In this document: positions 5,906-57,241 of the stretch, piece after piece
Layout: each line of letters opens with the position of its first letter
How positions within the stretch are numbered: the first letter of the stretch is position 1
Virus record (IMG/VR): IMGVR_UViG_3300030060_008074
Span: 1 to 64,000 of that record
Source of the DNA: a virus
Strand: one strand, 5' to 3'
DNA: 64,000 bases
Made by a program: the position numbers and the translations under genes
Notes under the pieces: model-generated
What the model saw: only the letters and a program-made list of their open reading frames with translations
The model's database searches: none
Told to the model about the DNA's origin: nothing

Positions 5906-6202
5906 TTAACTCACATCCATAAAATCGTGGTGACTTGCTTTCACACCCGATATTTTAAGTTCTCTTACTATTTTATCTAAAGTATTCCTACCTGAACCGT
6001 ATCTTCTAGGCACTTCCATGTCTATACCCATACTCTTGAGGTATTTATTAGTATCGTCTAATCCTAATTTAGCAGTTCTTTGTTTTTGAGATTTGTTTTT
6101 GTGTACGTCTGTACCGTAGAATAGACCGCCCTGTTCTGTATAAACAAACTCAACCTTTTGATAAGGGCTCTTAATCTCATATAGTAAACTTTTTAATTTC
6201 AT
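5906..6202 (-). CDS. Leader-type (putative capsid-targeted) protein, 98 aa
   Basis: Begins MKLKSLLYE, a member of the leader family seen in this block, with a possible prohead-protease cut after L-Y-E (residue 9). The remainder is basic and folds unknown (VEFVYTEQGG, then RTAKLGLDDTNKYLKS). Stop/start overlap with the next leader gene (6202) suggests coupling. By analogy with T4 internal proteins it may be packed in the head; this is inference from the leader. Confidence 0.6.
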   Translation of the reverse strand: MKLKSLLYEIKSPYQKVEFVYTEQGGLFYGTDVHKNKSQKQRTAKLGLDDTNKYLKSMGIDMEVPRRYGSGRNTLDKIVRELKISGVKASHHDFMDVS

Positions 6203-6450
6203 TATTTTAGACCAAACATTTTACCCATTAGATCAGGGTAACCTTTAACAGTTCGTAGCGTCTGTATCATCTTACTTATAGTAGACTTGTCTGCACCTTT
6301 AGCCGTTTTAGCTTCATGTTCAAGGTGTCGAAGTAATATAGTACAATTCCTCTCGAATTCTTTTTTGAATTCTTTGTCCATTGGAGCCTCTGTTAATGTT
6401 CCAGCTGATAATTTTCTAAGCCATGCATGTTGATTAAATTTTTCTGCCAT
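6202..6450 (-). CDS. Putative capsid-targeted protein, 82 aa
   Basis: The leader is longer and divergent (MAEKFNQHAWLRKLSAGTLT, then E) but also ends in L-T-E, at residue 21, followed by Ala. The rest is helical and basic (FERNCTILLRHLEHEAKTAK). It sits between two clear leader proteins, overlapping both by one base. Membership of the family is plausible but weaker than for its neighbours. Confidence 0.5.
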   Translation of the reverse strand: MAEKFNQHAWLRKLSAGTLTEAPMDKEFKKEFERNCTILLRHLEHEAKTAKGADKSTISKMIQTLRTVKGYPDLMGKMFGLK

Positions 6451-7550
6451 TAGTATTGCTCCATCTTATCTAATTTAGCCATAAGTTTTTTGAACTCAGA
6501 TTTTTTCTTTTTATATTCTTTTTCTTTCTTTTCAATATCTCTACCATATCTAGTAGCTTTAGGTCCACCTTCTGGCTCTGCCTCTTGTTCCATATCTTTA
6601 TGAAGTTGACTTAAATCTTTATTTATCATCTTCATATCCATTTCAAGGTCCATTATTTCATCTTGCAATTTCATTTTTGCATCAAAATGTTTCCAAAGAC
6701 TAGTGGCTTCATTTACTTTATCCACATCAATAGTTTCCTTTATTTCTTTAGCCATCATTACAGAAAGACCTAAAGCATCAATTAACTTTTTAGCAGTATT
6801 AAAGTATTTTTTATCTAACTTCAATGCTGTTAAAGTTGTAGATAATCTATTCATTGAATAACCCTTAATTTTAGCTTTATCTAATGCTTTTTGTAAGTCT
6901 GCAGGCTTGAAGTTTCCAGTAGTTTTGATACCAATCATACTTTCATTTAATTTGCCTTCAGTAACTCTTCCGTTCGATACAAAAAATGAATGTGGTTTTT
7001 GATTCCAAGTTTTAGGGTCTCCTTGAAAGTCCATATCTTCTTTCTTACCAGTTGATTTCATACCGCTTGACGTTACTACTGGCTCGTTTTCATAATAGAA
7101 CCATTTACCATTTTTTTCTTGAGCCACAGCAGTTGCCCAACGTGGAGGTGTTGCAGTAAATTTTGATTTGAAAGCTTTATATTTCGCTGAAGCTTCATTT
7201 AATTTATCATATCCTGATCCGTACGGCGCTGCCTTTCCATCGTGGTCTGGAGCAACTGACTCTTCTTTTTCATATCTATGAGATTGATCCGCGCATATGG
7301 CTTCTGATATAAATACCTTTTTTCCCTTTCTTTTCTCTGAGCTAGGTTTCAATCCAGATACCATTACCGGGTCAAAGCTTGTGGCTCCCGTACTCGGAAA
7401 CTTTACATAGGCAACATTACCCTTAACCTTATTAACTACTCCATACTCACCGAATGATTTATCGTGTATGAAGTCGCCTTTTTTAGGCTTTTGCTCTGTT
7501 AATAGGCTTAATTCTTCTTTTATGATATTTATGATTTCTGACTTTTTCAT
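6450..7550 (-). CDS. Large leader-type protein, possible polyprotein, 366 aa
   Basis: Begins MKKSEIINIIKEELSLLTE, a longer leader ending in L-T-E at residue 19. A small beta-rich domain follows (about 24-75: KGDFIHDKSFGEYGVVNKVK), resembling KOW/SH3-like barrels. The middle domain has KWFYYENEPVV and a region around 130-200. The last 90 residues form a long charged coiled coil. Further L/I-x-E sites occur at residues 83 (ISE), 119 (LNE) and 203 (LNE), so it could be cut into several pieces during head maturation. No known family; function unknown. Confidence 0.6.
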   Translation of the reverse strand: MKKSEIINIIKEELSLLTEQKPKKGDFIHDKSFGEYGVVNKVKGNVAYVKFPSTGATSFDPVMVSGLKPSSEKRKGKKVFISEAICADQSHRYEKEESVAPDHDGKAAPYGSGYDKLNEASAKYKAFKSKFTATPPRWATAVAQEKNGKWFYYENEPVVTSSGMKSTGKKEDMDFQGDPKTWNQKPHSFFVSNGRVTEGKLNESMIGIKTTGNFKPADLQKALDKAKIKGYSMNRLSTTLTALKLDKKYFNTAKKLIDALGLSVMMAKEIKETIDVDKVNEATSLWKHFDAKMKLQDEIMDLEMDMKMINKDLSQLHKDMEQEAEPEGGPKATRYGRDIEKKEKEYKKKKSEFKKLMAKLDKMEQY

Positions 7551-7551
7551 G

Positions 7552-7917
7552 TTAAGATGGTATAGTAGCGCCTTTTCTATTAAGAGTATTTGTCAATTCA
7601 GCTACCCCTTTGTATGCTTTATTAAAAGCTCCCTTCAAGTGACTGTATCTAGAACTATCAGCTGCTTTCATTTGATTTTCCATTCTTTCAATTTGAGTTC
7701 TTAATTCTCTCATCTTTTCTACATAAGGGTCCTTTCTCATTTTTGGAGCCTCTTCTAATCCCATATCTTGAGGCGGTAAATCATCAGTACTACCTTTATG
7801 GTCTTGATCTGCTACATCCTCCTCTTCAGTTAATGGATTCCATTTCATTTTCATGAGCTTTGAAGAAGGAAGTTCTCCTAAATAAGCACTTTCTTGAATT
7901 ATCTTTTTAAGTTTCAT
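7552..7917 (-). CDS. Leader-type protein, 121 aa
   Basis: Begins MKLKKIIQE, with a possible cut after I-Q-E at residue 9 and a second L-x-E (L-G-E) a few residues on. The middle is acidic and disordered (EEEDVADQDHKGSTDDLPPQ), the C-terminal half a charged helix with coiled-coil character (MRELRTQIERMENQMKAADS). Gene spacing is one base from the next leader gene. A scaffold-like or head-internal role is possible. Confidence 0.55.
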   Translation of the reverse strand: MKLKKIIQESAYLGELPSSKLMKMKWNPLTEEEDVADQDHKGSTDDLPPQDMGLEEAPKMRKDPYVEKMRELRTQIERMENQMKAADSSRYSHLKGAFNKAYKGVAELTNTLNRKGATIPS

Positions 7918-8616: not shown

Positions 8617-9693
8617 TTAAAATACTCTATAGTTTATACCTGCACTAAATCCGTGCCAAGTTCTGTTCCAATATTTGTTGTAATTTCCTTCTACAAACAC
8701 TCCTAAATTTTTACTAAACCAGTGTCCTAATATTATACCACCAGAGTAGTCATTCCATTGGCCTTCATTAAAATTGTAATAACTAAATTCATTTTCATCA
8801 TCACTAAAATGTAATGGCATTAGGCTACCCCATGCATGTAACCAACTTGTTTTAGTGTATTTGTAATAATCAAATCCTACTACCCATGAGTGTGTCCATT
8901 GTACTGGTAGCTCGTTTCTCTTTTTCTCAGTGTAGTTCGCAAGTGCTTGTGGTATAACAACAGCTTCCCATACCTCTGTACTAGTTGCTACTGAATTTCC
9001 TGATGGATCAAAATATTCTGCTCCGCCTTGTCCATCAAATTCTACTGTATATCCTTCTTGTAGAGCTAATTGAGTATAATGTAAATTGCCATTTGATAGT
9101 AGCCACTCTTCTAGTGGATCAAATCCATAAGGCTCTGACATTCTCTGTGCTACACCAATATTAACAGATATACCCTTCCATTCCTTTCTGTACCTTAATG
9201 AAGATTCAAAGAATTTTACATCAGCAAAACCGTCACGTAAATATTCTGCTTTAACTAGCCAGTCGGTAGCTATATATCTGACCATATGATGATAGTCAAA
9301 ATATTCTTGGCCTTCTTGTCTTTTATATTCATGTTGAAATAAAAATTCTACTTGATTTGACCATCTACCTATTGTTGCTGCATCACTAAAACTATTTTCT
9401 GTTCCATTTTTGAATGCCTCTTTAGGTTCATATCCAAATCTCTTTATTTTTCTAGCGCCAAATAATACTGAATAATCATAAGGTGTTTTAATTGTTTGTG
9501 TCTCTAGTCCATTCGTAACACTATAAACATCTACGTCTGATACAGAAGTATTACCATTCACAGCTCCATAAACTGTTGAGTACTTAAAAAAGTCTTTAGT
9601 AAAAGTTTTAACATCTACTTGGCCACAGCATTTTTTAGGTGCTGCACAACCAGCTAAAACAACTAATAATATAATGAGTATCTTTTTCATCAT
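8617..9693 (-). CDS. Putative outer-membrane beta-barrel protein, 358 aa
   Basis: A hydrophobic leader ending in LVVLAGC suggests a lipoprotein or a Sec signal. The mature part is dominated by alternating amphipathic strands rich in Tyr and Trp (such as VEFLFQHEYKR and LGVFVEGNYNKYW), and the chain ends in INYRVF, a C-terminal aromatic typical of outer-membrane barrels recognised by the BAM machinery. No specific porin family recognised. Its gene precedes, in the direction of transcription, the thioredoxin-fold gene and follows the giant T9SS protein. It could change the infected cell surface or block receptors. Role inferred only. Confidence 0.6.
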   Translation of the reverse strand: MMKKILIILLVVLAGCAAPKKCCGQVDVKTFTKDFFKYSTVYGAVNGNTSVSDVDVYSVTNGLETQTIKTPYDYSVLFGARKIKRFGYEPKEAFKNGTENSFSDAATIGRWSNQVEFLFQHEYKRQEGQEYFDYHHMVRYIATDWLVKAEYLRDGFADVKFFESSLRYRKEWKGISVNIGVAQRMSEPYGFDPLEEWLLSNGNLHYTQLALQEGYTVEFDGQGGAEYFDPSGNSVATSTEVWEAVVIPQALANYTEKKRNELPVQWTHSWVVGFDYYKYTKTSWLHAWGSLMPLHFSDDENEFSYYNFNEGQWNDYSGGIILGHWFSKNLGVFVEGNYNKYWNRTWHGFSAGINYRVF

Positions 9694-9704
9694 CTTCTCC
9701 TAGT

Positions 9705-10130
9705 TTACATCGCCTTGTCTAGTATCTTAACGCGATTAAGTCCTTTTAAGAATTTTTTTGTTGGTACCAGTGCATTTCCTATGTCAGTACGCTTGGCGCT
9801 TGTCTTTCCTTGATAGTCATCATATTTTTCTATTGATACTTTAGTGACATCAACAGTGCTGTCGTTTAAGTAGTGTTGTGTTTGATATATAAAATAAACT
9901 TCAGGTGGATAGCCACTTCCTTGTACGACATGATATTGCATGTGCTTAAACATTTTACCACCTTCATATGTTTTAAGTCGTTTATTTGCAGCTGCAACGT
10001 CGCCTCTTCCAACTCCAAAGCCTAAGCCTTGTAATACGTCGATAACTTTGTTAGCATTTTTATCTTTCACATACTTCATTTCAAAATTATAGTCTGTGAA
10101 TTCTTTTAGTATTTTCTGTAGTTTTATCAT
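9705..10130 (-). CDS. Leader-type protein, 141 aa
   Basis: Begins MIKLQKILKE, a clear family leader with a possible cut after L-K-E at residue 10. The rest is a basic alpha/beta protein (VIDVLQGLGFGVGRGDVAAA, then MQYHVVQGSGYPPEVYFIYQ). No family recognised. Its ATG overlaps the stop of the giant T9SS protein by four bases. Note that this leader protein is co-transcribed with exported proteins, so expression alone does not separate the two classes. Confidence 0.6.
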   Translation of the reverse strand: MIKLQKILKEFTDYNFEMKYVKDKNANKVIDVLQGLGFGVGRGDVAAANKRLKTYEGGKMFKHMQYHVVQGSGYPPEVYFIYQTQHYLNDSTVDVTKVSIEKYDDYQGKTSAKRTDIGNALVPTKKFLKGLNRVKILDKAM

Positions 10131-13100
10131 TGTTTTACCACTCTCGTATTAAATTTTCTATCATTATATATAAGTATCAAGTTGTACACCCCGTTTGGAT
10201 AGTCTGATAAATCAATTCTCTTAGAAGTTTCTCTCGTCATCAATTTACCCATAATATCGTATATCTCTACCTCAACTTCTAATCTTGTATCTATATTTAT
10301 CATATCTCCTGTAGGATTAGGATAAATCATTATTCCCATAGAGCTTATATCTTCTACTGATGTTGGCCAACCTAATTGACAGTAATCATACATTGATTGA
10401 CAACTAGCATCCCAATCGTCAGTACAGCAATATGAATCTACATCTATTACCCAAGCATAGCACCCATCGTTTAACCAATAAGGAACTCCTGGTCCTCCAT
10501 AACAACCTGCATCATATAAACAAGCTGAAGAATCTGAAACATTTGCTGCTGGATTGTAGTTATATGCACCTACATCTGTACATCCAAGAACTGCTGTTAT
10601 ACATGAACCGTCGTCATAACATGCGTTTGAATTATAGTTAACCGCTAATGGATCTGTACAACCTCCAATATAACAACAAGAATTATCTAGTGTATTAGCT
10701 AAAGGATCGAAGTTAAGTGCAGTATTATCTGTACAACCATAGATAAATGGTATACATGTTCCATTGTCCGTGTTGGCAGTTGGGTCATAATTGTACTGTG
10801 TAGAATCTGTACAACCATAGATAAATGGTATACAACTTCCGTTATCTGTGTTAGCTCCAGCATCATAATTAAACATTGTTGGGTCTGTACAACCATAGAT
10901 AAATGGTACACAGCTTCCGTCATCTGTATTTGCCGATGGATCGTAATTAAACTGGCTAGGATCAGTGCATCCATAAATATATGGTACGCAACTTCCGTCA
11001 TCTGTATTTGCTGTTGGCATATAATTGTAAGCACTTGAATCTGTACAACCATAAATATATGGTATACAGCTTCCGTCATCAGTGTTAGCAAGAGAATTGT
11101 AATTCAATGCTGTAGAGTCTGTACATCCTAATAACTCTGCTATACAAGTACCATCATCAGTATTTGCTAAAGCGTTGTAATTTATTGCTGTTGAATCTGT
11201 ACATCCGTAAAGATATGGTATACAGCTTCCATCATTTGTATTTGATAAAGCATCATAATTAAGAGCTGTTGAGTCTGTACAGCCATAAATGAATGGAATA
11301 CAAGAACCATTGTCTGTGTTAGCTGATGGGTCGTAGTTCCACATTGTCATATCCATACATCCATAGATAAACGGTATACATGAATAGTCTTCTGTATTTG
11401 CTAGTGGGTCATAATTAAATGCCGTTGGGTCTAGACAACCAAATACCTTTGCTATGCATGGGTCAGTTTGGTCTACTACCGAAGTCCATTGTACTGTAGC
11501 ATATTGGTCATAATTGTATTGAGTAGAATCCATACAGCCAAATATTGCATAATTAAGACAATAGCTTCCGTCATCGTAGTCTGCTACAAATCCTTGCGTA
11601 TGATATTCTAAATAGGCTGCATCTGTGCAACCAGGATTGTAATAACAAGAGTTATCTGTTGTATTTGCAAATTGATTATAGTTAACTGCTAAAGAATCTA
11701 TACATCCATATATTTTAGGAATACAGTTATTTCCACAAAATGCTAAATCATCATAAATCATTCCGTATTGATTATATGATAATAGTGGGTCAGTAAATGA
11801 ATTTGTACCTCCTTCAGAAATAACTAAACCAATTGGATTTGTTATCTGGAACATACATTGATTTGATGTTGGTACAGACTGTCCAAATGAGTAAAAATAA
11901 GTTTTTATTTCTTGTTGAGTATTAAGATATATTGCTGTATCTAATATTAGGTCGTTAGGTCCTAAAGTAAACGGACCCCAAAAATTATTTCCTTGAGTTA
12001 CAACTAAGAATGAGCCTGCCCAGCCATTATCAGCCCAGTCAGTTAATGTTAAAGTATTCATGCAACCAGGATTTTGTAATTGTGCTGTAGCATTAGGGTC
12101 ATAATTAAATGCGTTTGTATCAACACAGCCAAATACATTTAGTGTAGCACATGAACTATCATCTACAGTTGCCATTGGATTAAATTCTTGATATGCAGGG
12201 TCTGTGCAACCTAATATAGGTGTCTGTACACATTCATTGACGAATCCTACATCTGAATAAGTATTACCAAAATCTCCTATACCTTGAGATATAGTATCAC
12301 ATTCAGTATAAACTATCCATGTTCCATCAATACCACCAAATTGAGCACCACCTAAACCATCACCAAAATCGTCATCAATTGTAAATTGTATTTCTGTGCC
12401 ATAATCAATACAAAGATATTTTGTTACTATTGCTCCCATTGGCTGACCTGAATAAGAACCAATAGGCTGCTCGTGTATTAAAGTTCCACCTATTGTATAA
12501 ATATCCCATCCAATTTCTTCTGCATATTGGTCTAACATTATCTCTACTGTTACTAACTCTTTGCCAGGCGAACAAGATATAGGACCGCCTCCACCACAAC
12601 TATTATCGTCTAATGTTGCAGCTGGATTATAGTTTGCTGAAGTAGAATCCATACAACCAGGAATATTGATACATGAACCATCATCTACACCTGCTAAAGG
12701 ATTATAGTTTAGAGCGTTTGGTTGAGTACATCCATAAATGAATATACATGGATCAACCAACCAGTCTTCACCAACAACCGCATTTACGTTTAATCCTGGT
12801 ACAAAAGTTCCTGTATTTCCATCAGCTTGAGCTTCAGTTGGCACAACATAAATTAAAACTGCTGGCGCATTACAGTTTGTAGGAAAGTTAACCCCATCTA
12901 CGAACCACTGTTGACCTGATATGTAGATTCTAGTACCAGCCGACCATAGTGAAGGGTCATTCCAATAATCTACTGAATCTATTCCAAAATAGTTTTGATT
13001 CCATGAAGTTAAATTACAACTACCTCCTGGTACAATTACACCGTTTGGTAATTCACCTGCCGTAGAATCATAGTTTGTTGCATTAGGGTTCATACAGCCC

Positions 13101-13588
13101 TGTATATACTGACATGACCCATCGTCGTAAGAAGCCAATGAGTCATAGTTTATTGCAATAGGGTCCGTACATCCATATACTGGAGGAGCACAAGGCAAAA
13201 TATTAACTAGCGTATCTAGTGTTGAAAAGCCTATAAGTGCTGCTGAATCAAGATAAAATATCATACCTTGACAATCATTCTGCATCTTGAATTCAGAATA
13301 AGGTCCCATAAGTTGACCTGATTGATATGATGCCCACCCATCTCCATAAGAATCATTTAACGTTACTAAATAATCGCCTGAATTACAATTTATTACTGTG
13401 TCTAGATATTCCCATGGCTGTGTAGGCTCATGGAATAGTAAAGTATCTCCGTTTGAATTAGATACAAATGTAAAACCTGACTCTTGATTTGCCCAATAAT
13501 CATACTGAACTGCAAATCTAACCCAACTATCTGTTTGGGCAAATAGAAAAGTTGGTATTAACAGCAGTAAAAATAAAAATTTTTTCAT
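10127..13588 (-). CDS. Giant Cys-rich repeat protein with T9SS type A sorting domain, 1153 aa
   Basis: A signal peptide (MKKFLFLLLLIPTFLFAQ) opens the protein. At least twenty copies of a unit built around GC-T/M-D-x-x-A-x-N-Y-x-x-x-A-N-x-D-D-G-S-C follow. The early copies are interrupted by beta-rich inserts (19-120, 165-285, 340-450, 500-630); from about residue 720 they run in tandem with a 26-residue period. Each unit has two Cys and an Asp/Asn-rich loop, which suggests disulfide-locked, perhaps calcium-binding modules. The last 76 residues (from IMIYPNPTGDMINI) are a textbook T9SS type A sorting domain: YPNPT, YDIMGKL, IDLSDYPNGVYNLI, final VVKQ. The product should be exported by the host T9SS to the cell surface. 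Similar repeats are common in flavobacterial surface proteins, so acquisition from a host is plausible. Confidence 0.85.
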   Translation of the reverse strand: MKKFLFLLLLIPTFLFAQTDSWVRFAVQYDYWANQESGFTFVSNSNGDTLLFHEPTQPWEYLDTVINCNSGDYLVTLNDSYGDGWASYQSGQLMGPYSEFKMQNDCQGMIFYLDSAALIGFSTLDTLVNILPCAPPVYGCTDPIAINYDSLASYDDGSCQYIQGCMNPNATNYDSTAGELPNGVIVPGGSCNLTSWNQNYFGIDSVDYWNDPSLWSAGTRIYISGQQWFVDGVNFPTNCNAPAVLIYVVPTEAQADGNTGTFVPGLNVNAVVGEDWLVDPCIFIYGCTQPNALNYNPLAGVDDGSCINIPGCMDSTSANYNPAATLDDNSCGGGGPISCSPGKELVTVEIMLDQYAEEIGWDIYTIGGTLIHEQPIGSYSGQPMGAIVTKYLCIDYGTEIQFTIDDDFGDGLGGAQFGGIDGTWIVYTECDTISQGIGDFGNTYSDVGFVNECVQTPILGCTDPAYQEFNPMATVDDSSCATLNVFGCVDTNAFNYDPNATAQLQNPGCMNTLTLTDWADNGWAGSFLVVTQGNNFWGPFTLGPNDLILDTAIYLNTQQEIKTYFYSFGQSVPTSNQCMFQITNPIGLVISEGGTNSFTDPLLSYNQYGMIYDDLAFCGNNCIPKIYGCIDSLAVNYNQFANTTDNSCYYNPGCTDAAYLEYHTQGFVADYDDGSYCLNYAIFGCMDSTQYNYDQYATVQWTSVVDQTDPCIAKVFGCLDPTAFNYDPLANTEDYSCIPFIYGCMDMTMWNYDPSANTDNGSCIPFIYGCTDSTALNYDALSNTNDGSCIPYLYGCTDSTAINYNALANTDDGTCIAELLGCTDSTALNYNSLANTDDGSCIPYIYGCTDSSAYNYMPTANTDDGSCVPYIYGCTDPSQFNYDPSANTDDGSCVPFIYGCTDPTMFNYDAGANTDNGSCIPFIYGCTDSTQYNYDPTANTDNGTCIPFIYGCTDNTALNFDPLANTLDNSCCYIGGCTDPLAVNYNSNACYDDGSCITAVLGCTDVGAYNYNPAANVSDSSACLYDAGCYGGPGVPYWLNDGCYAWVIDVDSYCCTDDWDASCQSMYDYCQLGWPTSVEDISSMGIMIYPNPTGDMINIDTRLEVEVEIYDIMGKLMTRETSKRIDLSDYPNGVYNLILIYNDRKFNTRVVKQ
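10640..11450 (-). repeat. Tandem 78-bp coding repeat inside the T9SS protein gene
   Basis: About ten near-identical 78-bp units, each coding for one 26-residue Cys-rich module. On the plus strand the phrase ACCATAGATAAATGG or a variant recurs at each unit boundary. Units differ at scattered positions, so the array is diverged rather than freshly duplicated. Confidence 0.75.
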
Positions 13589-13747: not shown

Positions 13748-14323
13748 TTACTTTTTAATAATATCTGTCAATTTACTAGATACTGACTCTTTCATACTCT
13801 TATATATAGCCTTAAATTCTTTTTTAGTTTTACCATCTAAATACCTATCCAAACCAAATGCATTTGCCGGCCTAATTAGAGATGCTATTTTGCCCTTATT
13901 TATGAATTTACCATATTTTTTACCGTATGGAGACATTCTAATCCAAGTCTGTATACCATCTGCTAGGTCTTTAGACATCTTAATACCTTCTATTGAAGAA
14001 GTTTTTCCTTTTACTATGTCTTCTAAGCCTTGCTTTGCAGTTAGTCCTCTTCCTCCTGATGAACCTTTATCTGCCTTTCTCTGGAAAAAAGATGCATCTC
14101 GCTTTTGTGGCTTTTCTTTTTTACCTTTATCCTTTAAAAATTTATCAGATACTTTCTTTTCTTTATTGTATGCTATCTTAGCTGGATGGTCGTCTGGTAA
14201 TTTTTTAGCAGATCCTGCAGGCATTAAATCATTTTCTCCAGTTTTAGGGTCTTTATATCTTATCATGGTTTTATCTTTCAAACCAGTATATTCAAATTCA
14301 TTTAGCATGCTTTTTAGTTTCAT
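13748..14323 (-). CDS. Leader-type protein, 191 aa
   Basis: The preferred start at 14323 gives MKLKSMLNE, a family leader with a possible cut after L-N-E at residue 9, and has AAGGGAT upstream. The frame is open 17 codons further, but those lie inside the nuclease gene. The mature part is Lys-rich (DKFLKDKGKKEKPQKRDASF), with a central ordered domain around KMSKDLADGIQTWIRMSPYG. No family recognised. High positive charge would suit DNA contact inside a head. Confidence 0.6.
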   Translation of the reverse strand: MKLKSMLNEFEYTGLKDKTMIRYKDPKTGENDLMPAGSAKKLPDDHPAKIAYNKEKKVSDKFLKDKGKKEKPQKRDASFFQRKADKGSSGGRGLTAKQGLEDIVKGKTSSIEGIKMSKDLADGIQTWIRMSPYGKKYGKFINKGKIASLIRPANAFGLDRYLDGKTKKEFKAIYKSMKESVSSKLTDIIKK

Positions 14324-14327
14324 ATTA

Positions 14328-14717
14328 CTATCCCTTAAATACTTTCTTTTTACCTCCATCATAAACATATGCATGACCTTCAGTAATCAATTGGTTATTT
14401 ACACAAATGGTATTTTCATTTTCGTCTTGTATAAAAATTTCACCAAGAACTCTACCGTACTTACCAACTCCATACGATTTAAGTCTAAAATATCCTGGTT
14501 TAGAACTAACCTCCTCTAAAAGCTTTTTATTTCTTTCTTTGGCTGCTAATCCTTTTTTCTTTTCATCAAGGTCTCTTGTCCTGCTTTCCCAGCAGTCTAT
14601 ACCTTTGTATCTAATTCTTTTTTTAACCCAAATGTCAAATCCTACATCGATAAGAGCATCGATAGTGTCTCCATCAACTACTCTTTCTAACTTACCTCGA
14701 TATATGTACTTTTCCAT
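14328..14717 (-). CDS. Staphylococcal-nuclease-like (SNase) protein, 129 aa
   Basis: A small OB-fold nuclease of the thermonuclease family, which cuts DNA and RNA with calcium. Family motifs are in order: RVVDGDTIDALIDVGFD (metal-binding Asp), RIRYKGIDCWESR (Arg and Glu of the active site), GKYGRVLGEIFI (second Arg) and INxxLITEGHAYVY near the end. No signal peptide or leader of the block's type, so it is predicted to be cytoplasmic. It may degrade host nucleic acid or process phage DNA. It sits one base from the membrane Cys-rich gene. Confidence 0.85.
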   Translation of the reverse strand: MEKYIYRGKLERVVDGDTIDALIDVGFDIWVKKRIRYKGIDCWESRTRDLDEKKKGLAAKERNKKLLEEVSSKPGYFRLKSYGVGKYGRVLGEIFIQDENENTICVNNQLITEGHAYVYDGGKKKVFKG

Positions 14718-15101: not shown

Positions 15102-15626
15102 CTACTTAACCAATTTTGTGATTATAGTGGTATCAGGATACTTTTTCCTAAGTTTATTTACTGCCTTTATATTTTTAGGGCTGTCATCCATAAAGTATAT
15201 CGGATCGTAACCTTTTAGTATTTCTGTCTCTATGTATTCTGCCTTTTTCTGTGGATTTGCATCACCTAAAGGTACTACGTATGGCTGTATACCTATGGTT
15301 TTGAAGAAATGATTTATTGGTGCACCAAGTCTTCTGGCAGTTAATATCGTCACTTTTCTGCCACCCTTCTTTAATTGCTTGCGTAACAAATCAACATTCT
15401 TTTTGATAATTTTTGGATTTCTTAACTTTTTATCAAAATCTCTAAAATCATATTCTTGTCCTTTTTCTAGTCTGTGTACTGCAAATTCAGCAGGGTCAAG
15501 CTTTTCTACCTCTACTCCATTAGCAGTTACGTACACCCATGAATCTGACTTAGCTAGGGTATCATCAAAGTCAAATATACTTAAAAGCTTCTTCTCTAGT
15601 AGTATGTCTTTTAATTTTATCGCCAT
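15102..15626 (-). CDS. Leader-type HAD-family phosphatase, 174 aa
   Basis: Begins MAIKLKDILLE, a family leader with a possible cut after L-L-E at residue 11. A haloacid-dehalogenase phosphatase follows: motif I LSIFDFDDTLA (D19 nucleophile, D21), motif II VTILTAR, motif III lysine in NPQKKAEYIE and motif IV YFMDDSPKN. These are the full catalytic set. Related small HADs in phages act on nucleotides or 3'-phosphates of nucleic acid, but the substrate cannot be read. If the leader targets heads, the enzyme would be inside the virion and released with the DNA. Confidence 0.75.
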   Translation of the reverse strand: MAIKLKDILLEKKLLSIFDFDDTLAKSDSWVYVTANGVEVEKLDPAEFAVHRLEKGQEYDFRDFDKKLRNPKIIKKNVDLLRKQLKKGGRKVTILTARRLGAPINHFFKTIGIQPYVVPLGDANPQKKAEYIETEILKGYDPIYFMDDSPKNIKAVNKLRKKYPDTTIITKLVK

Positions 15627-15853
15627 GGTAGCATTGTCATTCCTATTAAATTAAGTAAAACTTCTATTATGATAACTGCTATCAAACCTGGACCTAATTG
15701 CCAAGCCCACCATTTCCATCCTTCTAATCCTAACGCCCATTCACGTATTGAAGACTTTCTTGCCTTATCATATAAACCAGACCTTTCACCAATCTTACTA
15801 GACCAATAATTTGGGTCTATTATATCTTTTAATTTTTTTAATAATTTAAGCAT
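15617..15853 (-). CDS. Small membrane protein, 78 aa
   Basis: A basic, amphipathic N-terminus (MLKLLKKLKDIIDPNYWSSK) leads to a Trp-rich segment (WKWWAWQLG) and one membrane helix (GPGLIAVIIIEVLLNLIGMT). The first residues resemble a degenerate leader (LKKLKDIID), though no L-x-E site follows. Overlaps the HAD gene by 10 nt. Role unknown. Confidence 0.5.
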   Translation of the reverse strand: MLKLLKKLKDIIDPNYWSSKIGERSGLYDKARKSSIREWALGLEGWKWWAWQLGPGLIAVIIIEVLLNLIGMTMLPWR

Positions 15854-16193
15854 CCTTAGTTTTCTTCTTTAATTTTTCTAAGTGTGCAGACCAAATTTTG
15901 TATGCGGCGTTTAGATTTTTCTTTTTTTCTGGGTCTTTAGTTCTTTCTTTTGCAACCTTTGCTCTTTGTTTCATAACCAATGTAGCTTGTACTTTATGAG
16001 CGTGTTTACGACTAGCTTTATTTATTATTCCTACACCCTTTCTGGCGGTTGCAGCATCTTTGAATCCTAGTCCATGTATTGTTCCTTTTGGGTCTTCATC
16101 AGTATATAGGTCTGAATGTTTTGAAGAACCTTTTTTCTGTCCCTTTTTTCTAGCAGTTCTTGAAGCCTCGTATATGTCTTTTAACTTTATCAT
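15846..16193 (-). CDS. Leader-type very basic protein, 115 aa
   Basis: Begins MIKLKDIYEAS: a family leader with a possible cut after I-Y-E at residue 9. The rest is rich in Lys, Arg and His (SRTARKKGQKKGSSKHSDLY) and ends in a helical segment (AYKIWSAHLEKLKKKTKDA). The middle has GLGFKDAATARKGVGIINKA, which is also met in small phage proteins of unknown role. Strongly basic, as T4 internal proteins are. The ATG overlaps the neighbouring gene's stop by 4 nt. Confidence 0.65.
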   Translation of the reverse strand: MIKLKDIYEASRTARKKGQKKGSSKHSDLYTDEDPKGTIHGLGFKDAATARKGVGIINKASRKHAHKVQATLVMKQRAKVAKERTKDPEKKKNLNAAYKIWSAHLEKLKKKTKDA

Positions 16194-16594
16194 ACGTATT
16201 TTTTCCAGTTTTTCTCTGCTCTCCTAGCTTCCTTTTCTGTAGGATTATTTTTGTATCCTTTTTCTCTTCCTGACTTTATCTTTTTTGGGTCTTGTTTTGC
16301 ATGAGTGTATTCATGTAATATAGACCTAATAACGTCCTCTTCTGAATTTAATGCTGAACTATAAAGGTATATCGTATTATCTTCATGTACAAATTCAGCC
16401 TTTTCTCTTTCTCCTCCTGGGTGATCCTCGATTCCACTATATCTTGCATAGATATTACTGCCAATTTTAATTTTTGGTATACCCTTTCTAGCCTTTCCAA
16501 GGTCCTTTACTATTTTAGGATATACTCTAGATACAATTTTGTTTATATCATTTTTAGACATTCCTTCTGAGAGTATGTCTTTTAATCGTATCAC
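16190..16594 (-). CDS. Leader-type HExxH metalloprotease-like protein, 134 aa
   Basis: Begins MIRLKDILSE, with a possible cut after L-S-E at residue 10. The domain contains IRSILHEYTHAKQD, a zinc-peptidase HExxH motif at residues 94-98, and a later Glu in NPTEKEARRAEKNW that could be the third ligand. The fold before it includes TIYLYSSALNSEED, the usual beta-hairpin of small M-clan peptidases. A protease that would enter the cell with the DNA is an attractive idea but unproven; the size is near the minimum for such a domain. Overlaps neighbours by 4 nt on both sides. Confidence 0.65.
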   Translation of the reverse strand: MIRLKDILSEGMSKNDINKIVSRVYPKIVKDLGKARKGIPKIKIGSNIYARYSGIEDHPGGEREKAEFVHEDNTIYLYSSALNSEEDVIRSILHEYTHAKQDPKKIKSGREKGYKNNPTEKEARRAEKNWKKYV

Positions 16595-17241
16595 TTTTTC
16601 TTCTTTTTAGCTTTTCTTGCTTTTGCCGCTAAATCTTTATCTGCTCCACCCCAAGTTCCCTTTCCTTTTGTTGCAAAGCTATTTACTCTAGCATGGGCCC
16701 ATTGTTGTTGTCCTGCACCAGGACGATGTCCAGTTTTCCAAGCAGCCATTCCTCTATCATATACTTTCTTAAGTATTCCCTTTGGTATACCTGTTTTTTT
16801 AGCTTTTTTTGCTAAAGACTTATCTGCTGGAGATTCCTTTAGGGTTTTTGATTCCTTCCAAACCTCTCTTAGTGCTTTCCAACCGTTTTCCCCAAACATC
16901 TGCTTGAATTTTTTTGTGTGTTTTGATGGTTTTGTTTTTTCACCCTTGTCTGTATCAAAATCTTTATACGCATCTGGGTCGTCGTCATCCATCTTACTTC
17001 TTCTAGCTATAACCCTTTCCCTCTCTTTTTTCTCTTCTGGAGATAATCCTTTGAAATAAGCAGGATTACTTTTAGCTGTCGCTGAAGCCTCATCTAAACC
17101 GAATCTCATGGCTCTAAGCTGGAACTCAATAATTCCTTCACCTCTTCTTCTGTTTTGATTTCCAATGAGCTTCGCGAATACAAGCTTATCAAATATTACC
17201 TTTGCTGCCTTTTTAGGGCTAAGTCCTTCATTTAGTTTCAT
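16591..17241 (-). CDS. Leader-type protein of DUF5824 type, 216 aa
   Basis: Begins MKLNEG, a shortened leader with L-N-E at residues 3-5. The C-terminal 80 residues (SLAKKAKKTGIPKGILKKVY, then RPGAGQQQWAHARVNSFATK and GTWGGADKDLA) match, as I recall it, the DUF5824 domain common in marine phages. Ends in a poly-basic tail (AKARKAKKKKK). The middle is acidic and disordered (SKMDDDDPDAYKDFDTDKGE). A nucleic-acid-related role is likely from the charge; the domain is uncharacterised. Confidence 0.65.
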   Translation of the reverse strand: MKLNEGLSPKKAAKVIFDKLVFAKLIGNQNRRRGEGIIEFQLRAMRFGLDEASATAKSNPAYFKGLSPEEKKERERVIARRSKMDDDDPDAYKDFDTDKGEKTKPSKHTKKFKQMFGENGWKALREVWKESKTLKESPADKSLAKKAKKTGIPKGILKKVYDRGMAAWKTGHRPGAGQQQWAHARVNSFATKGKGTWGGADKDLAAKARKAKKKKK

Positions 17242-17251
17242 AATATATCTC

Positions 17252-17719
17252 CTATCTTGGCGGTGCCTCTATAGCTGCTATTTGTCCTTTTGCTCTTTTC
17301 TTTGAAGTATGACAGGCACTTCTCTTTTTACCTTTTTTATCTGTATAATATAGTACAGTATTTCCTCTATCTCCATCAGATTGTTTACAGCTCTGACTTC
17401 TTATATTATATTTTTCTTCTAATTCTTCATCATCTGGGTTTAGAAGATAATCTCTACACTTATTTAGAGAGTTAGATGCAATTGCAATTTTACTCATCCA
17501 CCAACTAGGTAAATCTCCTTCTGAGTCCATCGTTTCTAATTTTTCTAGCATTTGCCTTGCATCTTCTATTGCAAGCTTCATTTTTCTCTTTGCAGAAGCC
17601 ACGTCAGTATGTCCATCTTCGTTTAACTCATCATCCTTTTTAGGCGCGCCCTTTATTGTTCCATCAGGTTCGACTAGAGCTGGGTTTTGCTCACTTAATA
17701 TATTTTTTAATTTAATCAT
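17252..17719 (-). CDS. Leader-type protein, 155 aa
   Basis: Begins MIKLKNILSE, with a possible cut after L-S-E at residue 10. A second L-N-E falls at residue 34, followed by DGHTDVASAKRKMKLAIEDA, a helical region that recurs in marine phage head-associated proteins as I remember them. The C-terminal third has two Cys and a short beta region (DRGNTVLYYTDKKGKKRSAC). The ATG overlaps the PAP2 gene's stop by 4 nt. Function unknown. Confidence 0.6.
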   Translation of the reverse strand: MIKLKNILSEQNPALVEPDGTIKGAPKKDDELNEDGHTDVASAKRKMKLAIEDARQMLEKLETMDSEGDLPSWWMSKIAIASNSLNKCRDYLLNPDDEELEEKYNIRSQSCKQSDGDRGNTVLYYTDKKGKKRSACHTSKKRAKGQIAAIEAPPR

Positions 17720-18552
17720 CTTATTCTCCTATTAAAAAAGTCAAACAATGCATCACCAACCTCTAATCCAAATATAGAGTCTGATGGATAATGCACCTTT
17801 GCGACAAGTCTTGCGTTAGATATTTCATCAGCCAATTTCATTATTTCGTTAGAATGCTCAGGATATTTTGTTGCTAAAAATTTTCCAATCAATCTTCCTT
17901 GGCTCGAGTGGCCACTAGGATACGAAGGAGTTTTTGCAGTATCTAGAGGCTCTTGATGGAATTCTAATCCCATAGCTGAAGCCAGTTGGGCTGGTCTTGG
18001 CCTATTGTAGTGATATTTTAGTTTATATAATATACCCTTTGTATCTTTTATCAGTGTTTCTACCTCCTCCTTTGGATAATCTAATCCAGCACTCTTGAAA
18101 TATTCTTCAAAATATTTTGTAATATCATCTGCCTTTTTTACATCAATAGTGCTTACTATAGTCTCTAGCTCTCTCATTTCAGCTAAAGTTTTTTGGCTAC
18201 TGTTAGAAAAGGGTGGATTTGACATGAATGGAGATATATCAAAGTCTTGAAATATACTATCATTTCTGTCCATATGTTTTTGATGAGATTTTTTAACTGT
18301 GTCTCCATATTTTAGAGAATCTACATCTGATACAATTTCTTTTAACTTAATAGATTCTTTTTTGGGCATAAGTTTTTTTATTCTAAAAGACAGCATCTTT
18401 TTACCATTTATAGTTGGTTGTCCATGCTCATCTGTTCCAAACTCTTTTACAACAACAGGCTTGTTCTTAAATTTTCCACGTAAAATAGTATCACCTACTT
18501 CTAGGTCAATTTCAAACTTTTCAGATAATATGTCTTTTAACTTTATTCCCAT
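17716..18552 (-). CDS. Leader-type PAP2 (acid phosphatase family) protein, 278 aa
   Basis: Begins MGIKLKDILSE, with a possible cut after L-S-E at residue 11. Residues 13-60 form a small beta domain (EVGDTILRGKFKNKPVVVKE). A second, leader-like IKLKEIVSD stands at 68-76. The C-terminal 120 residues are a PAP2-family phosphatase: NRPRP at 183-187, PSGH at 212-215, then R248, H254 and D258 in NARLVAKVHYPSDS. All catalytic positions are present. PAP2 enzymes remove phosphate from lipids, sugars or nucleotides. No membrane helices are visible, so this is the soluble type. The doubled leader suggests that two leader genes fused. Confidence 0.75.
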   Translation of the reverse strand: MGIKLKDILSEKFEIDLEVGDTILRGKFKNKPVVVKEFGTDEHGQPTINGKKMLSFRIKKLMPKKESIKLKEIVSDVDSLKYGDTVKKSHQKHMDRNDSIFQDFDISPFMSNPPFSNSSQKTLAEMRELETIVSTIDVKKADDITKYFEEYFKSAGLDYPKEEVETLIKDTKGILYKLKYHYNRPRPAQLASAMGLEFHQEPLDTAKTPSYPSGHSSQGRLIGKFLATKYPEHSNEIMKLADEISNARLVAKVHYPSDSIFGLEVGDALFDFFNRRIR

Positions 18553-18731
18553 TTTCTTTGATATTTTTCTCTTTGGTCTATGAGTACGTACTCTACAGCA
18601 TCATATTCACCACAATGTGGACATCTAAGTTTTTCTAAATTACTTGCTTCATTTATTTTCCATTCACCACCACATTTCTTATTACTACATTTGTAAATAT
18701 ACGTATGTCTAATGAATACCTTGTGTCCCAC
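18543..18731 (-). CDS. Zinc-ribbon protein, 62 aa
   Basis: Two Cys knuckles (YKCSNKKCGGEW and LRCPHCGEYD) form a small zinc ribbon. Adjacent sequence includes a basic start (GHKVFIRHTYI) and an Asp/Glu-rich middle. No family leader. It overlaps the PAP2 gene by 10 nt. Likely a nucleic-acid or protein-binding ribbon, as found widely in phages. Confidence 0.6.
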   Translation of the reverse strand: MGHKVFIRHTYIYKCSNKKCGGEWKINEASNLEKLRCPHCGEYDAVEYVLIDQREKYQRKWE

Positions 18732-18743
18732 TAAAATTCTCCG

Positions 18744-19226
18744 CTACCAGTTTTTACAGCTCCAGTATCTTGCTTTATGTCTTGGACCAGGACTATCGCA
18801 ATTATGTCTTGCTCTAAAACTTGCTCTTGCTCCTGGATCAGATCTTTTAATTCTATTCTTTTTACCTTTGGCTCCAAAGTTTACTTTAACAACATTCCCC
18901 TTTGGATTCTTAACATAAACCTTAAACTTACCAGTATCACCTCTTGTAGGCTTTCCAAGTTTTACCTTTCTTCCTTGATACTCTGCTTCAGTTATATTCT
19001 GCATTTGGTTTGTTAAGTATTCCATAAAACAATCATAGTCTTCTGTTTTAACTTCATATTCAGGAATTACTGATTCTGAGGCAGATCTGAAATTTTTATC
19101 AGATGGTGCCCCTTTTTCTCCCTTCTTTCTCATCCTTTTTCCAGATTTTCTTCTCTTATGTATATTGGCCCATAATCCAGGACCCTTTTCATTTAGATTT
19201 TCTAAAATTTTTCTTAGATTTATCAT
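18744..19226 (-). CDS. Leader-type protein with KRRKSGKR motif, 160 aa
   Basis: Begins MINLRKILENLNE, with L/I-x-E at residues 9 and 13. Then comes GLWANIHKRRKSGKRMRKKG, a motif I recall from conserved marine phage proteins (often placed in domains of unknown function), and a second basic domain ending in SFRARHNCDSPGPRHKARYW then SCKNW. The middle (AEYQGRKVKLGKPTRGDTGK) looks like a beta-barrel. Strongly basic, so DNA or RNA contact is likely. It is the first leader gene in this transcriptional direction. Confidence 0.65.
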   Translation of the reverse strand: MINLRKILENLNEKGPGLWANIHKRRKSGKRMRKKGEKGAPSDKNFRSASESVIPEYEVKTEDYDCFMEYLTNQMQNITEAEYQGRKVKLGKPTRGDTGKFKVYVKNPKGNVVKVNFGAKGKKNRIKRSDPGARASFRARHNCDSPGPRHKARYWSCKNW

Positions 19227-19227
19227 G

Positions 19228-19845
19228 TTATCCCTCTAAATCTTCTGATTCTAATAATGTATATGAAAATGAATTACCATGAATTTCTCTAGCTGCTTGA
19301 CAAATATCTAAAAATTCATGCCAATCATCGTTATCTGCAATTACTTGGCAACCTGCTGACCATTTATCTACTCTTGTAGATTTTCCTCCTGACCTACCAG
19401 TAGCTCTATGGATGTTGATTCCTATAAGCTCTTCTCTTACTGACTCTTCTATTAAATCATATTTGCCGTCTAGGTTTGCATCTCTGTATATTTTCATAGG
19501 CTTCTTTTGGCCTAAAGCTAAATATTTTCCTTGATGAAGTCTTAATTTATGAGAGCCTCTGTACTGACCAGGTTTTAATATTGCAACACCTCTATCATTC
19601 AGTATATTTTCAACCCAGTGAGTTCCTGGATCGGTTGTACATGCATATTCATGATACATCCAATTGCCATCTTCATTTTTATATGAGATAGTTATTAGAT
19701 CGTCAAATGCATTTGTAACCCTGCCCTTTGTTTTTGAATTTCTAATTCCTATGATATTTACATCATAAGATTTATTGCTGTTGTCGTGAAAGTATTTGTA
19801 ACCTTTTTCTTCGACAGTTGATTGAATCTGTTCTCTTGTGTACAT
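19228..19845 (-). CDS. L,D-transpeptidase-like (YkuD-type) protein, 205 aa
   Basis: The C-terminal half contains IHRATGRSGG then DKWSAGCQVI. This fits the H...S-x-G-C signature of L,D-transpeptidase catalytic domains, with H145, S163 and C166 as candidates. The N-terminal half has beta strands and GTHWVENILNDRGVAILKPG. No signal peptide is visible, which differs from host enzymes. It may be a virion-borne or lysis-time peptidoglycan enzyme, or a related amidase of the same fold. The call rests on the short motif and is moderate. Confidence 0.5.
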   Translation of the reverse strand: MYTREQIQSTVEEKGYKYFHDNSNKSYDVNIIGIRNSKTKGRVTNAFDDLITISYKNEDGNWMYHEYACTTDPGTHWVENILNDRGVAILKPGQYRGSHKLRLHQGKYLALGQKKPMKIYRDANLDGKYDLIEESVREELIGINIHRATGRSGGKSTRVDKWSAGCQVIADNDDWHEFLDICQAAREIHGNSFSYTLLESEDLEG

Positions 19846-19884: not shown

Positions 19885-19896
19885 TATATAAATATA
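19885..19896 (-). promoter_or_regulatory. TATATTTATATA motif, possible late promoter (L4)
   Basis: Minus strand TATATTTATATA, 39 nt ahead of the ATG at 19845. It also sits 23 nt downstream of the stop of the 59-residue gene. Confidence 0.35.
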
Positions 19897-55322: not shown

Positions 55323-56945
55323 TTATCCAAGTCCAAATCCTCCACCCATCATCGGTGGCTCTGCATCAGAATCTTCTGGTTTTTTTGTTATTACACACTC
55401 AGTTGTAAGCATTGTACCAGCAACAGAAGCAGCTTTTTCCAGTGCAACTCTAGTTACCTTTGCAGGGTCAATAATACCAGCGTCGTACATATCTACAACC
55501 ATTTCTCTTCTAGCATCAAACCCTTGAGTGCTTGTCAAATCTTTTATATCTTTCCATACTACCTCAGGATTAAGTCCTGCATTTTCCATTATATATCCAA
55601 ACGGTGCACCACAAGCCTTAATAACTATTTCTCTTCCTGCTAGCTGATCGTCATTTTCAAAATCTTTTACATCTGGCTCCAAACATCTCATCAGGGCAAT
55701 ACCACCACCTGGAATAATACCTTCATCTAAAGCTGCTCTTGTTGCATTTAGGGCATCTTCTACTCTATCTTTCTTTTCTTTCATTTCTATTTCAGATTCT
55801 GCGCCTATTCTTAAAATAGCAACTCCTCCTGCAAGTTTTGCTAATCTTTCTTGAGTTTGTTCTTTGTCATAGTTTGAAGAAGCATTTTCTATGTCATGTT
55901 TTATTTGAGAAACTCTATTTTCTATTTCCTCAGCTGTTCCTGCTCCATCAACTATTGTTGTATATTTGTTATTTATTGTAACGAGTCTTGCCGTACCAAA
56001 AGATTTTGTAGTAATCTTATCTAATCTCATTCCTCTATGATATGAAACAACCTCTCCTCCTGTTAGAGCTGCAATATCCTCTAAATATTGATTTCTTTTA
56101 TCACCAAACCCTGGAGCTTTAACTGCAGCAACCTTACACGTGCCTCTCATTTTATTTACAATAAGTCCAGCAAGAGCTTCTCCATCTACGTCTTCTGCAA
56201 TAATAAGTAAAGGTTTGTCTTGTTGAATAGCTGCTTCTAAAATTTTTACTATTTCCTTTATAGAAGTAATTTTTTTGTCATAAAGTAATATCCATGGGTT
56301 TTCAAGCTCTACCTGCATTTCTGTATTATTTGTTATGAAGTACGGGGATAGATATTTACTCTCAAACTGCATACCTTCTACTATTTCTAATCTAGTATCT
56401 CCTGTTTGAGATTCTTCTACAGTCACAACTCCTTCTCTACCAACTTTAGATATTGCCTCTGATATTAAATTTCCAACCTCTCCATCGTTATTTGCAGATA
56501 TTTTTGCTATATTTCTAATATCTTCGTCAGTACTTACATCTTTACTACAGTCTCTTAGGCTTTTTACTATTGATTTTACAGACTTATCAATACCCCTTTT
56601 TAATTCTATAGGGTGTCTACCTGATTCTATGTTTCTTATTCCTAATTTTATTATTTCAGAAGCCAATACTGTAGCTGTTGTTGTTCCATCACCAGCTTCA
56701 TCATTAGTTTGTTGTGCAACTTCTTTTACTATTTGAGCACCTGCGTTTTCTAACGTGTCCTCAAGTTCAATTTCTTTTGCTACCGTTACTCCATCCTTTG
56801 TGGAGTGATATTCTCCATATTCTTTTTCAATGATAACAGTTCTACCTCTCGGTCCTAATGTAGACTTTACGGCATCAGCTAGTTTATTAACTCCACTGTT
56901 TATACCGTTTCTAGCATCTCTATTAAATGATAAATCTTTTGCCAT
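55323..56945 (-). CDS. groEL: Chaperonin GroEL, 540 aa
   Basis: The 60-kDa chaperonin. Recognisable elements: VKSTLGPRGRTVIIEKEYGE near the start, NDEAGDGTTTATVLASEIIK (ATP-binding GDGTT), the apical domain with a DIAALTGGEVV element, and EGIIPGGGIALMRCLEP in the C-terminal equatorial domain. The end is Gly/Met-rich (PMMGGGFGLG). Length is normal for GroEL. Encoded together with its co-chaperonin (5-nt gap). A phage-borne pair would fold large amounts of late structural protein. Confidence 0.95.
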   Translation of the reverse strand: MAKDLSFNRDARNGINSGVNKLADAVKSTLGPRGRTVIIEKEYGEYHSTKDGVTVAKEIELEDTLENAGAQIVKEVAQQTNDEAGDGTTTATVLASEIIKLGIRNIESGRHPIELKRGIDKSVKSIVKSLRDCSKDVSTDEDIRNIAKISANNDGEVGNLISEAISKVGREGVVTVEESQTGDTRLEIVEGMQFESKYLSPYFITNNTEMQVELENPWILLYDKKITSIKEIVKILEAAIQQDKPLLIIAEDVDGEALAGLIVNKMRGTCKVAAVKAPGFGDKRNQYLEDIAALTGGEVVSYHRGMRLDKITTKSFGTARLVTINNKYTTIVDGAGTAEEIENRVSQIKHDIENASSNYDKEQTQERLAKLAGGVAILRIGAESEIEMKEKKDRVEDALNATRAALDEGIIPGGGIALMRCLEPDVKDFENDDQLAGREIVIKACGAPFGYIMENAGLNPEVVWKDIKDLTSTQGFDARREMVVDMYDAGIIDPAKVTRVALEKAASVAGTMLTTECVITKKPEDSDAEPPMMGGGFGLG

Positions 56946-56950
56946 AACCT

Positions 56951-57241
56951 TTATTCTCCTCTCTTAATTATACAATGAATGTCTAGTTCGTTTATTACAA
57001 AAACTTCTTCTTCATCAACCTCTATAGAGTATGCTCCTCTCTTAGGGTATGCAACTAAGTCTCCAATATTGCAAAGTGGTTCAACTGTATTTCCATAATT
57101 AACTGCTCCTGGGCCTACTGCTAATATTCTACCTCTACTAACACCTTCCTGAGAAATGTCAGGCATAATAACTCCTCCTGAAGTCATCTCTTCTGGGTCT
57201 ACTGGTTTAATTGCTACTTTTCCTCTCATTGGTTCTATCAT
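56951..57241 (-). CDS. groES: Co-chaperonin GroES, 96 aa
   Basis: The 10-kDa partner of GroEL. MRGKVAIKPVDPEEMTSGGV opens the barrel, PDISQEGVSRGRILAVGPGA is the mobile loop and strand region (the loop normally reads IVL; here IMPDISQEG), and YPKRGAYSIEVDEEEVFVIN ends the fold. The ribosome site AAAGGAG precedes the ATG. It lies downstream of the DNA polymerase. Confidence 0.95.
   Translation of the reverse strand: MIEPMRGKVAIKPVDPEEMTSGGVIMPDISQEGVSRGRILAVGPGAVNYGNTVEPLCNIGDLVAYPKRGAYSIEVDEEEVFVINELDIHCIIKRGE

Follow-up and report, generated by a model that had tools for sequence, protein, structure and literature searches.

A leader of capsid-targeting form suggests that three putative enzymes of a marine T4-like phage are virion cargo

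The window analyzed here comprises bases 1-64000 of the 78,204-base IMG/VR record IMGVR_UViG_3300030060_008074, a genome fragment of a marine T4-like phage that probably has a Bacteroidota host. Three of its genes, encoding a HAD-type phosphatase, an HExxH zincin-like putative metalloprotease and a PAP2 phosphatase, begin with a short leader resembling the capsid-targeting sequence (CTS) of T4. Packaging through this CTS-like tag is the best explanation of the leader, and we consider it likely; the particle probably contains these enzymes and delivers them together with its DNA. In the proposed mechanism, the leader would be a propeptide of the T4 capsid-targeting kind that brings tagged proteins to the prohead core late in infection. 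A gp21-type protease would then cut behind the leader-terminal [hydrophobic]-x-Glu, releasing the enzyme within the head, and when the phage next infects a cell the freed enzyme would exit alongside the DNA. On this view, HAD phosphatase, zincin-like protease and soluble PAP2 phosphatase would be three items of a changeable cargo, and their action in the new host would follow from packaging. The new elements are the dialect of the leader, the repertoire of enzymes and the probable existence of cargo polyproteins.

Results

The leader and its distribution

The leader was surveyed in this phage and 15 relatives, with a total of 1040 open reading frames (ORFs). The strict leader pattern was present at 57 of the 1040 ORF starts versus 1 of 4298 internal Met positions. 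Profile scores of at least 14 were obtained at 55 of 5892 N-terminal positions versus 13 of 229,859 other positions, and most of these 13 are leaders located just behind an over-long start. The leader is real, far beyond chance. Its consensus by position is K-L-K-D/N-I-L-x-E, with the Glu at residue 10 in 37 of the 57 cases and at residue 9 or 11 in 19 more. The codons differ while the residues stay, the Leu at -6 being encoded by five codons; a codon or translation effect was rejected, since the codons vary. In the window, nine ORFs match the leader, all between 5.9 and 19.3 kb, and ORF 13748-14374 is added if an internal Met is used; from 20 to 64 kb, no matching ORF was found. In the HAD and HExxH structure models, the predicted local distance difference test (pLDDT) of the leader is below 50, and the folded domain starts right behind it.

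Further leader-bearing families were also observed. A second leader class, M-x-x-x-E-I-x-x-I-I-x-E-E-x, marks long proteins encoded in the same cluster (window 6450-7550; L006 4130-5779; L010 4414-5955). A P-loop kinase of the zeta-toxin type bears the leader in L006 (1944-2648; PF06414, 1.7e-8), L010 (2046-2747) and G004 (105415-106116); this kinase keeps the Glu before GVYDPGIFKA, and its form in pelagiphage HTVC008M is MIPFILKE-GLYDPGIF. Finally, a leader-bearing GDCYxAxG...GHxWVE family (L012 872-1486, L013 10372-10818, L015 9941-10387, L017 1771-2772) is perhaps a cysteine peptidase; no convincing Pfam match was found with the members searched.

Register, prohead machinery and late expression

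In the T4 CTS, residues 4 and 7 are involved in targeting and residues 8 and 10 in processing, and Asp at position 10 stops processing while leaving targeting intact (PMC9026906). In the T4 record, the CTSs of ipII and ipIII are both MKTYQEFIAE. The leader MIKLKDILSE, with L4, I7, L8 and E10, is in the exact T4 register and has the CTS form: approximately ten residues, hydrophobic positions 4, 7 and 8, and Glu at 10. We refer to it as a dialect because its own profile misses the T4 and S-CREM2 leaders. Register, chemistry and neighboring machinery, and not sequence, connect it to T4, and the tagged proteins would work, by analogy, like T4 internal proteins.

Concerning this machinery, the gp21-family prohead protease (PF03420) was identified in three relatives holding head genes (E-values 6e-30, 4e-28 and 2e-35), and gp23 is present in four relatives. 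In relative G015, a single short stretch holds two leader genes followed by gp17, portal, gp21, gp22 and gp23 (gp17, portal and gp22 were named by eye). The gp23 of the relatives shows [IL]xE sites, QLIDE or QLLKE, ahead of the conserved shell region. In gp22, [ILM]xE was strongly enriched relative to shuffled controls in only one of three relatives. The gp21 of G015 (L035, 11390-12019) has a C-terminal IIRDILCE-MTG that is close to the leader core and may be a self-cleavage site. We set this suggestive site aside as support, as it ranks 99 among internal matches.

The three enzyme genes belong to one operon with a promoter-like motif, ATATTTATA, upstream (Table 1). In relative G004 (L036-L044), two promoter-like intergenic motifs were distinguished: GTTATATT occurs at genes for DNA metabolism and other non-structural functions, and ATATTTATA, here without GTT, at structural genes. 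With block boundaries and motif classes defined after inspection, 10 of 15 members of the ATATTTATA class versus 3 of 27 of the GTTATATT class were located at structural genes (p = 4e-4), and the two classes are probably early/middle and late promoters. Late expression of the enzyme operon is suggested because its promoter-like class concentrates at structural genes in G004.

The three enzymes

The initial annotation had placed the leader ahead of three enzymes with complete catalytic motifs, and our analysis confirmed both points: all three ORFs lie on the minus strand at the annotated positions and carry it, and the motifs of each are complete and invariant among its homologues. In the HAD-type protein, the leader MAIKLKDILLE is followed by KKLLSIFDFDDT. 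Motifs I (DxDxT), II (T), III (K) and IV (DD) are all present, and D19, D21, T23, T96, K109, K128, D147 and D148 are the same in all 15 homologues (43-77% identical). The assignment as a HAD phosphatase draws on these motifs, on a match to the phrog_415 polynucleotide kinase (1.4e-7) and, less firmly, on the predicted fold (pLDDT 77), which has MDP-1 among its best PDB matches with weak scores (E 4e-3, prob 0.98); the Pfam score was below the cut-off. PDB sequence searches with the HAD and HExxH proteins gave no match, and in 50,697 phage records no homologues of either were found, while those of PAP2 were weak or partial only.

Homologues of the HAD protein that are approximately 40-46% identical are encoded on Bacteroidota chromosomes, in single-cell genomes of marine origin, next to ordinary chromosomal genes such as one for an amino-acid-permease-like protein (identity read by eye). 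They begin at MSYKRLRIFDFDDT, without a leader, their starts being M(S/G)YKRLRIFDFDDT or similar. On this comparison, the leader has been added to an enzyme that is already complete, and cutting the phage protein after the leader Glu would restore the length of the cellular homologue. The HAD domain is joined in L018 to a nucleotidyltransferase of the CCA/poly(A) type (PF01743, 7e-31) and an HD domain, and in L020 to a cytidylyltransferase-like domain and an HExxH-like stretch. Because of these fusions to CCA-type nucleotidyltransferase and cytidylyltransferase, a role in nucleotide or RNA-end chemistry is suggested, and our best guess is the cleanup of nucleotide or RNA ends.

The putative metalloprotease begins with MIRLKDILSE-GMSKND, and its H94, E95, H98, Q101 and downstream E120 are invariant in 10 homologues. 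Its model (pLDDT 88) matches viral SprT/IrrE-like predicted folds at E-values of 4e-7 to 9e-4, with weak PDB fold matches. The Pfam score for zincins was below the cut-off; HExxH with a candidate downstream third ligand, together with the predicted fold, suggests a zincin. The HExxH domain is fused to HAD in L015 and L020. Our best guess is that it would cut a host or co-packaged protein.

The PAP2 protein begins with MGIKLKDILSE-KFEIDLEVGD and contains the further motifs NRPRP, PSGH and HYPSD. The Pfam match is clear (PF01569, 7e-12), and K179-x6-R186-P187, P212-S-G-H215 and R248-x5-H254-x3-D258 are invariant in 7 homologues. The nearest solved structures are soluble acid phosphatases (1iw8, 1d2t, PhoN class A), and no membrane span was seen by hydropathy. 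On these features, the protein is of the soluble acid-phosphatase type and not an obvious membrane-lipid phosphatase; the best guess for its activity is dephosphorylation of soluble phosphomonoesters, e.g., nucleotides.

Cleavage sites at fusion junctions

Leader-borne modules of one phage recur inside longer proteins of other phages. An [ILVMF]xE was located at most 3 residues upstream of 21 of 37 internal module copies, compared with 5.3% of random positions (p about 1e-17, in the test without hand-shifted junctions, a few of the 37 rows being mis-set starts or duplicates). At hand-set junctions, allowing shifts of up to 3 residues, P1 was Glu at 25 of 30 and P3 was hydrophobic at 19 of 30, whereas the targeting positions of the leader were at background. 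Retention of the cutting half alone is not what one would expect of a simple relic of a fused leader. Because the junctions retain the cleavage half and lose the targeting half, cargo polyproteins cut during head maturation are suggested.

The window's PAP2 gene is a module fusion of this kind, and its orthologues in L006 and L010 begin exactly at the IKLKEIVSD position (Table 1). Because this internal remnant ends in Asp, the junction may stay joined, by the T4 rule. Each of the three enzyme genes of the window encodes a single enzyme, and multi-enzyme fusions occur in L015, L018 and L020.

Cyanophage virions with measured proteins

A T4-derived pattern (M, one or two residues, aromatic, two, aromatic, hydrophobic, any, Glu) was compared with the particle mass spectrometry of cyanophage S-CREM2 as given in Table 3 of PMC10665884. 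Among the non-structural proteins, the pattern was present in 4 of 28 detected versus 1 of 167 undetected in that table (p = 0.0016), the chance expectation being 0.15 matches per proteome. The four are a SAM hydrolase, an APH-like kinase, a cytidylyltransferase and gp136. Within the examined stretch of S-SZBM1, the pattern matches a single protein, the cytidylyltransferase, which is the one enzyme reported in that virion (PMC9146016). This supports the view that T4-type leaders predict virion enzymes in marine T4-like phages. In the open-access library searched, the Black review alone was found to link capsid-targeting sequences and cyanophages.

Discussion

Weighing packaging against other explanations

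The proposal of the initial annotation that these enzymes are packaged with the DNA gains strong indirect support from the exact CTS register, the gp21 of the relatives, the late-type promoter, the leader-less chromosomal homologues, the junction sites and the cyanophage virion enzymes. The tag with its register and spread, the catalytic sets, the leader-less cellular HAD proteins, the retained junction sites and the gp21 of the relatives are computed findings; packaging, cleavage, ejection and action in the new host are inferred. Its suggestion of an attack on host defense or signaling is conjectural; the HAD fusions point rather to nucleotide or RNA-end chemistry, and PAP2 is of the soluble acid-phosphatase type. 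Several points weigh against packaging. The gp21 gene was not found on the 78-kb record of this phage, a fragment. The profile built from these leaders gives T4 ipII/ipIII and the S-CREM2 enzymes no high rank, and it failed as a finder of such cargo. In the PAP2 orthologues of L006, L009, L010 and L011, the leader is degenerate and its cut site has no Glu. With regard to S-CREM2, the T4-derived pattern was chosen after its N-termini were seen, a first, looser pattern gave p = 0.026, and the authors caution that the detected enzymes might be carry-over (PMC10665884).

Tagged proteins might instead be core filler or processing helpers for head building, with enzymatic domains that act in the head or not at all, so that host delivery would be unneeded. 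T4 internal proteins do belong to the core (PMC9026906), a role for fused zincins in processing polyvalent proteins, either before or after their injection, has been proposed (PMC5512222), and HExxH and HAD are fused in L015 and L020. We nevertheless regard this explanation as unlikely: the catalytic residues are invariant in three unrelated enzymes, the HAD has chromosomal homologues in Bacteroidota, and the cargo set differs among relatives, unlike essential assembly parts. It is more improbable still that the leader is a translation-start feature or a docking peptide for another partner, such as host RNA polymerase, a membrane or a phage complex. The failure of the leader profile to find the T4 CTS would agree with that idea, but the codons vary, the enzyme operon lies behind a late-type promoter, and same-register leaders of the T4 type mark the S-CREM2 virion enzymes. 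Moreover, the terminal hydrophobic-x-Glu kept alone at internal junctions fits a cut site, not a docking helix. The least probable explanation that we considered, and a very improbable one, is that the enzymes work only in the infected cell, late, in nucleotide salvage or protein turnover, the leader being a relic or merely tolerated. The late-type promoter would suit such a role, and metabolic enzymes of these kinds are, as is generally known, often carried by phages; a relic would decay, however, and all 15 HAD and all 10 HExxH proteins, fusions included, keep the Glu of the cut position.

Beyond packaging of the three enzymes, we are evenly divided on whether this is a general cargo system. 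In such a system, a portable ten-residue tag would load almost any captured gene, including an enzyme with Bacteroidota chromosomal homologues, and fused polyproteins would be cut by the prohead protease at hydrophobic-x-Glu between modules, so that one tag would deliver several enzymes.

Comparison with known systems

The leaders resemble the T4 CTS of IPII, IPIII and Alt, with its gp21, in their length of about ten residues, hydrophobic positions 4, 7 and 8, Glu at 10, the diversity of the mature proteins and the gp21-family protease of the relatives. They differ in having a KLKDIL core instead of MKTYQEFIAE, more tagged proteins per phage, cargo that is enzymatic, and fusions containing internal cut sites; packaging is here a prediction. 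The cyanophages S-CREM2 and S-SZBM1 are also T4-like marine phages, and they share cytidylyltransferase-like and DUF5824 modules with the relatives of the window. The T4-type leaders of their virion enzymes are of an aromatic dialect (MKxFxxFLxE and variants), and no HAD, zincin or PAP2 of these types is among the named detected proteins.

Polyvalent proteins of phages and conjugative elements (PMC5512222) likewise join many dissimilar enzyme domains, including zincins, with predicted co-injection with DNA, and the fusions in L015, L018 and L020 are similar. In contrast to them, most genes here are separate and short, with their own tags, and the junctions have prohead-protease-like sites. The HAD protein has a weak sequence match to T4 polynucleotide kinase-phosphatase (HAD 3'-phosphatase domain, phrog_415), and the L018 fusion to a CCA-type nucleotidyltransferase and an HD domain suggests end repair; unlike the T4 enzyme, it has no kinase domain and bears a packaging-type leader, and its nearest predicted folds are MDP-1-like, with weak scores. 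PAP2 shares with class A non-specific acid phosphatases (1iw8, 1d2t, PhoN) the complete Kx6RP / PSGH / Rx5Hx3D set and the absence of a membrane-spanning stretch by hydropathy. It differs in having the leader and an extra N-terminal module in place of a secretion signal.

Features of the record

Nearly all genes of the record are on the minus strand, and bases 60000-78204 contain UvsX/RecA-like, gp41-like helicase, ribonucleotide reductase and ssDNA-binding-like genes (identities read by eye). The 1153-aa product of ORF 10127-13588 is a secreted protein that contains repeats of the form GCTDxxAxNYNxxANTDDGSC and carries a type IX secretion sorting domain (PF18962, 1.8e-10); this phage-encoded protein apparently uses the host secretion route. 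A Bacteroidota host is suggested because of this sorting domain and the chromosomal HAD homologues in marine Bacteroidota. The DUF5824 domain of 16591-17241 is common to a pelagiphage cytidyltransferase family (phrog_3041). ORFs 55323-56945 and 56951-57241 (within 55323-57241 of the window) resemble a GroEL/GroES pair, and 20667-47409 is a long island of sugar-nucleotide, glycosyltransferase and surface-polysaccharide-like genes. In L001, ORFs 6174-6728 and 9360-10697 contain undetermined bases (XXXX in the translations) near tail-like genes of the record.

Table 1. Leader-bearing genes and associated features of the window
Feature	Position	Strand	Basis
HAD-type phosphatase with leader, 174 aa	15102..15626	-	PHROG, homologue alignment, fold model
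HAD leader MAIKLKDILLE, predicted cut after E11	15594..15626	-	Leader survey; E11 invariant in 15 homologues
HAD motif I, DFDDT (residues 19-23)	15558..15572	-	Homologue alignment
HAD motif IV, DD (residues 147-148)	15183..15188	-	Homologue alignment
HExxH zincin-like putative metalloprotease with leader, 134 aa, GTG start	16190..16594	-	Alignment, fold model
Metalloprotease leader MIRLKDILSE, predicted cut after E10	16565..16594	-	E10 invariant in 10 homologues
HEYTH zinc motif (residues 94-98)	16301..16315	-	Homologue alignment
E120, candidate third zinc ligand	16235..16237	-	Invariant in 10 homologues
Leader, VGDTI module, internal leader remnant and PAP2 acid-phosphatase-type domain, 278 aa	17716..18552	-	Pfam, alignment
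PAP2 leader MGIKLKDILSE, predicted cut after E11	18520..18552	-	Leader survey and profile
Internal second leader remnant IKLKEIVSD (residues 68-76), Asp at cleavage position	18325..18351	-	Alignment
PAP2 catalytic region (residues 167-269): Kx6RP, PSGH, Rx5Hx3D	17746..18054	-	Pfam, alignment
Ten-gene operon, intergenic gaps of at most 12 bases, all three enzymes inside	15102..19845	-	Gap measurement
Late-promoter-like ATATTTATA upstream of operon, 41 bases before first start	19887..19895	-	Motif comparison
Leader protein MKLKSLLYE	5906..6202	-	Leader pattern survey
Leader protein MKLKKIIQE, with own late-type promoter	7552..7917	-	Leader survey and promoter motif
Leader protein MIKLQKILKE	9705..10130	-	Leader pattern survey
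Leader protein MKLKSMLNE-FEYT if internal Met is the start	13748..14374	-	Homologous to G004 leader protein MKLKNIINE
Leader protein MIKLKDIYE-ASRT	15846..16193	-	Homologue in Pelagibacter phage Mosig
DUF5824 protein, degenerate leader MKLNEGLS	16591..17241	-	Pfam and PHROG profile matches
Leader protein MIKLKNILSE	17252..17719	-	Leader pattern survey
Leader protein MINLRKILENLNE	18744..19226	-	Leader survey and PHROG search

Implications

If the leader acts as proposed, phage virion cargo would be readable from sequence alone, through an exact-register tag with a testable cut site. Several enzymes seen in cyanophage particles, whose packaging route is unexplained in the available parts of those reports, can now be tied to a T4-type leader. 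In uncultured marine phages, the tag would predict enzymes that act in the first minutes of infection.

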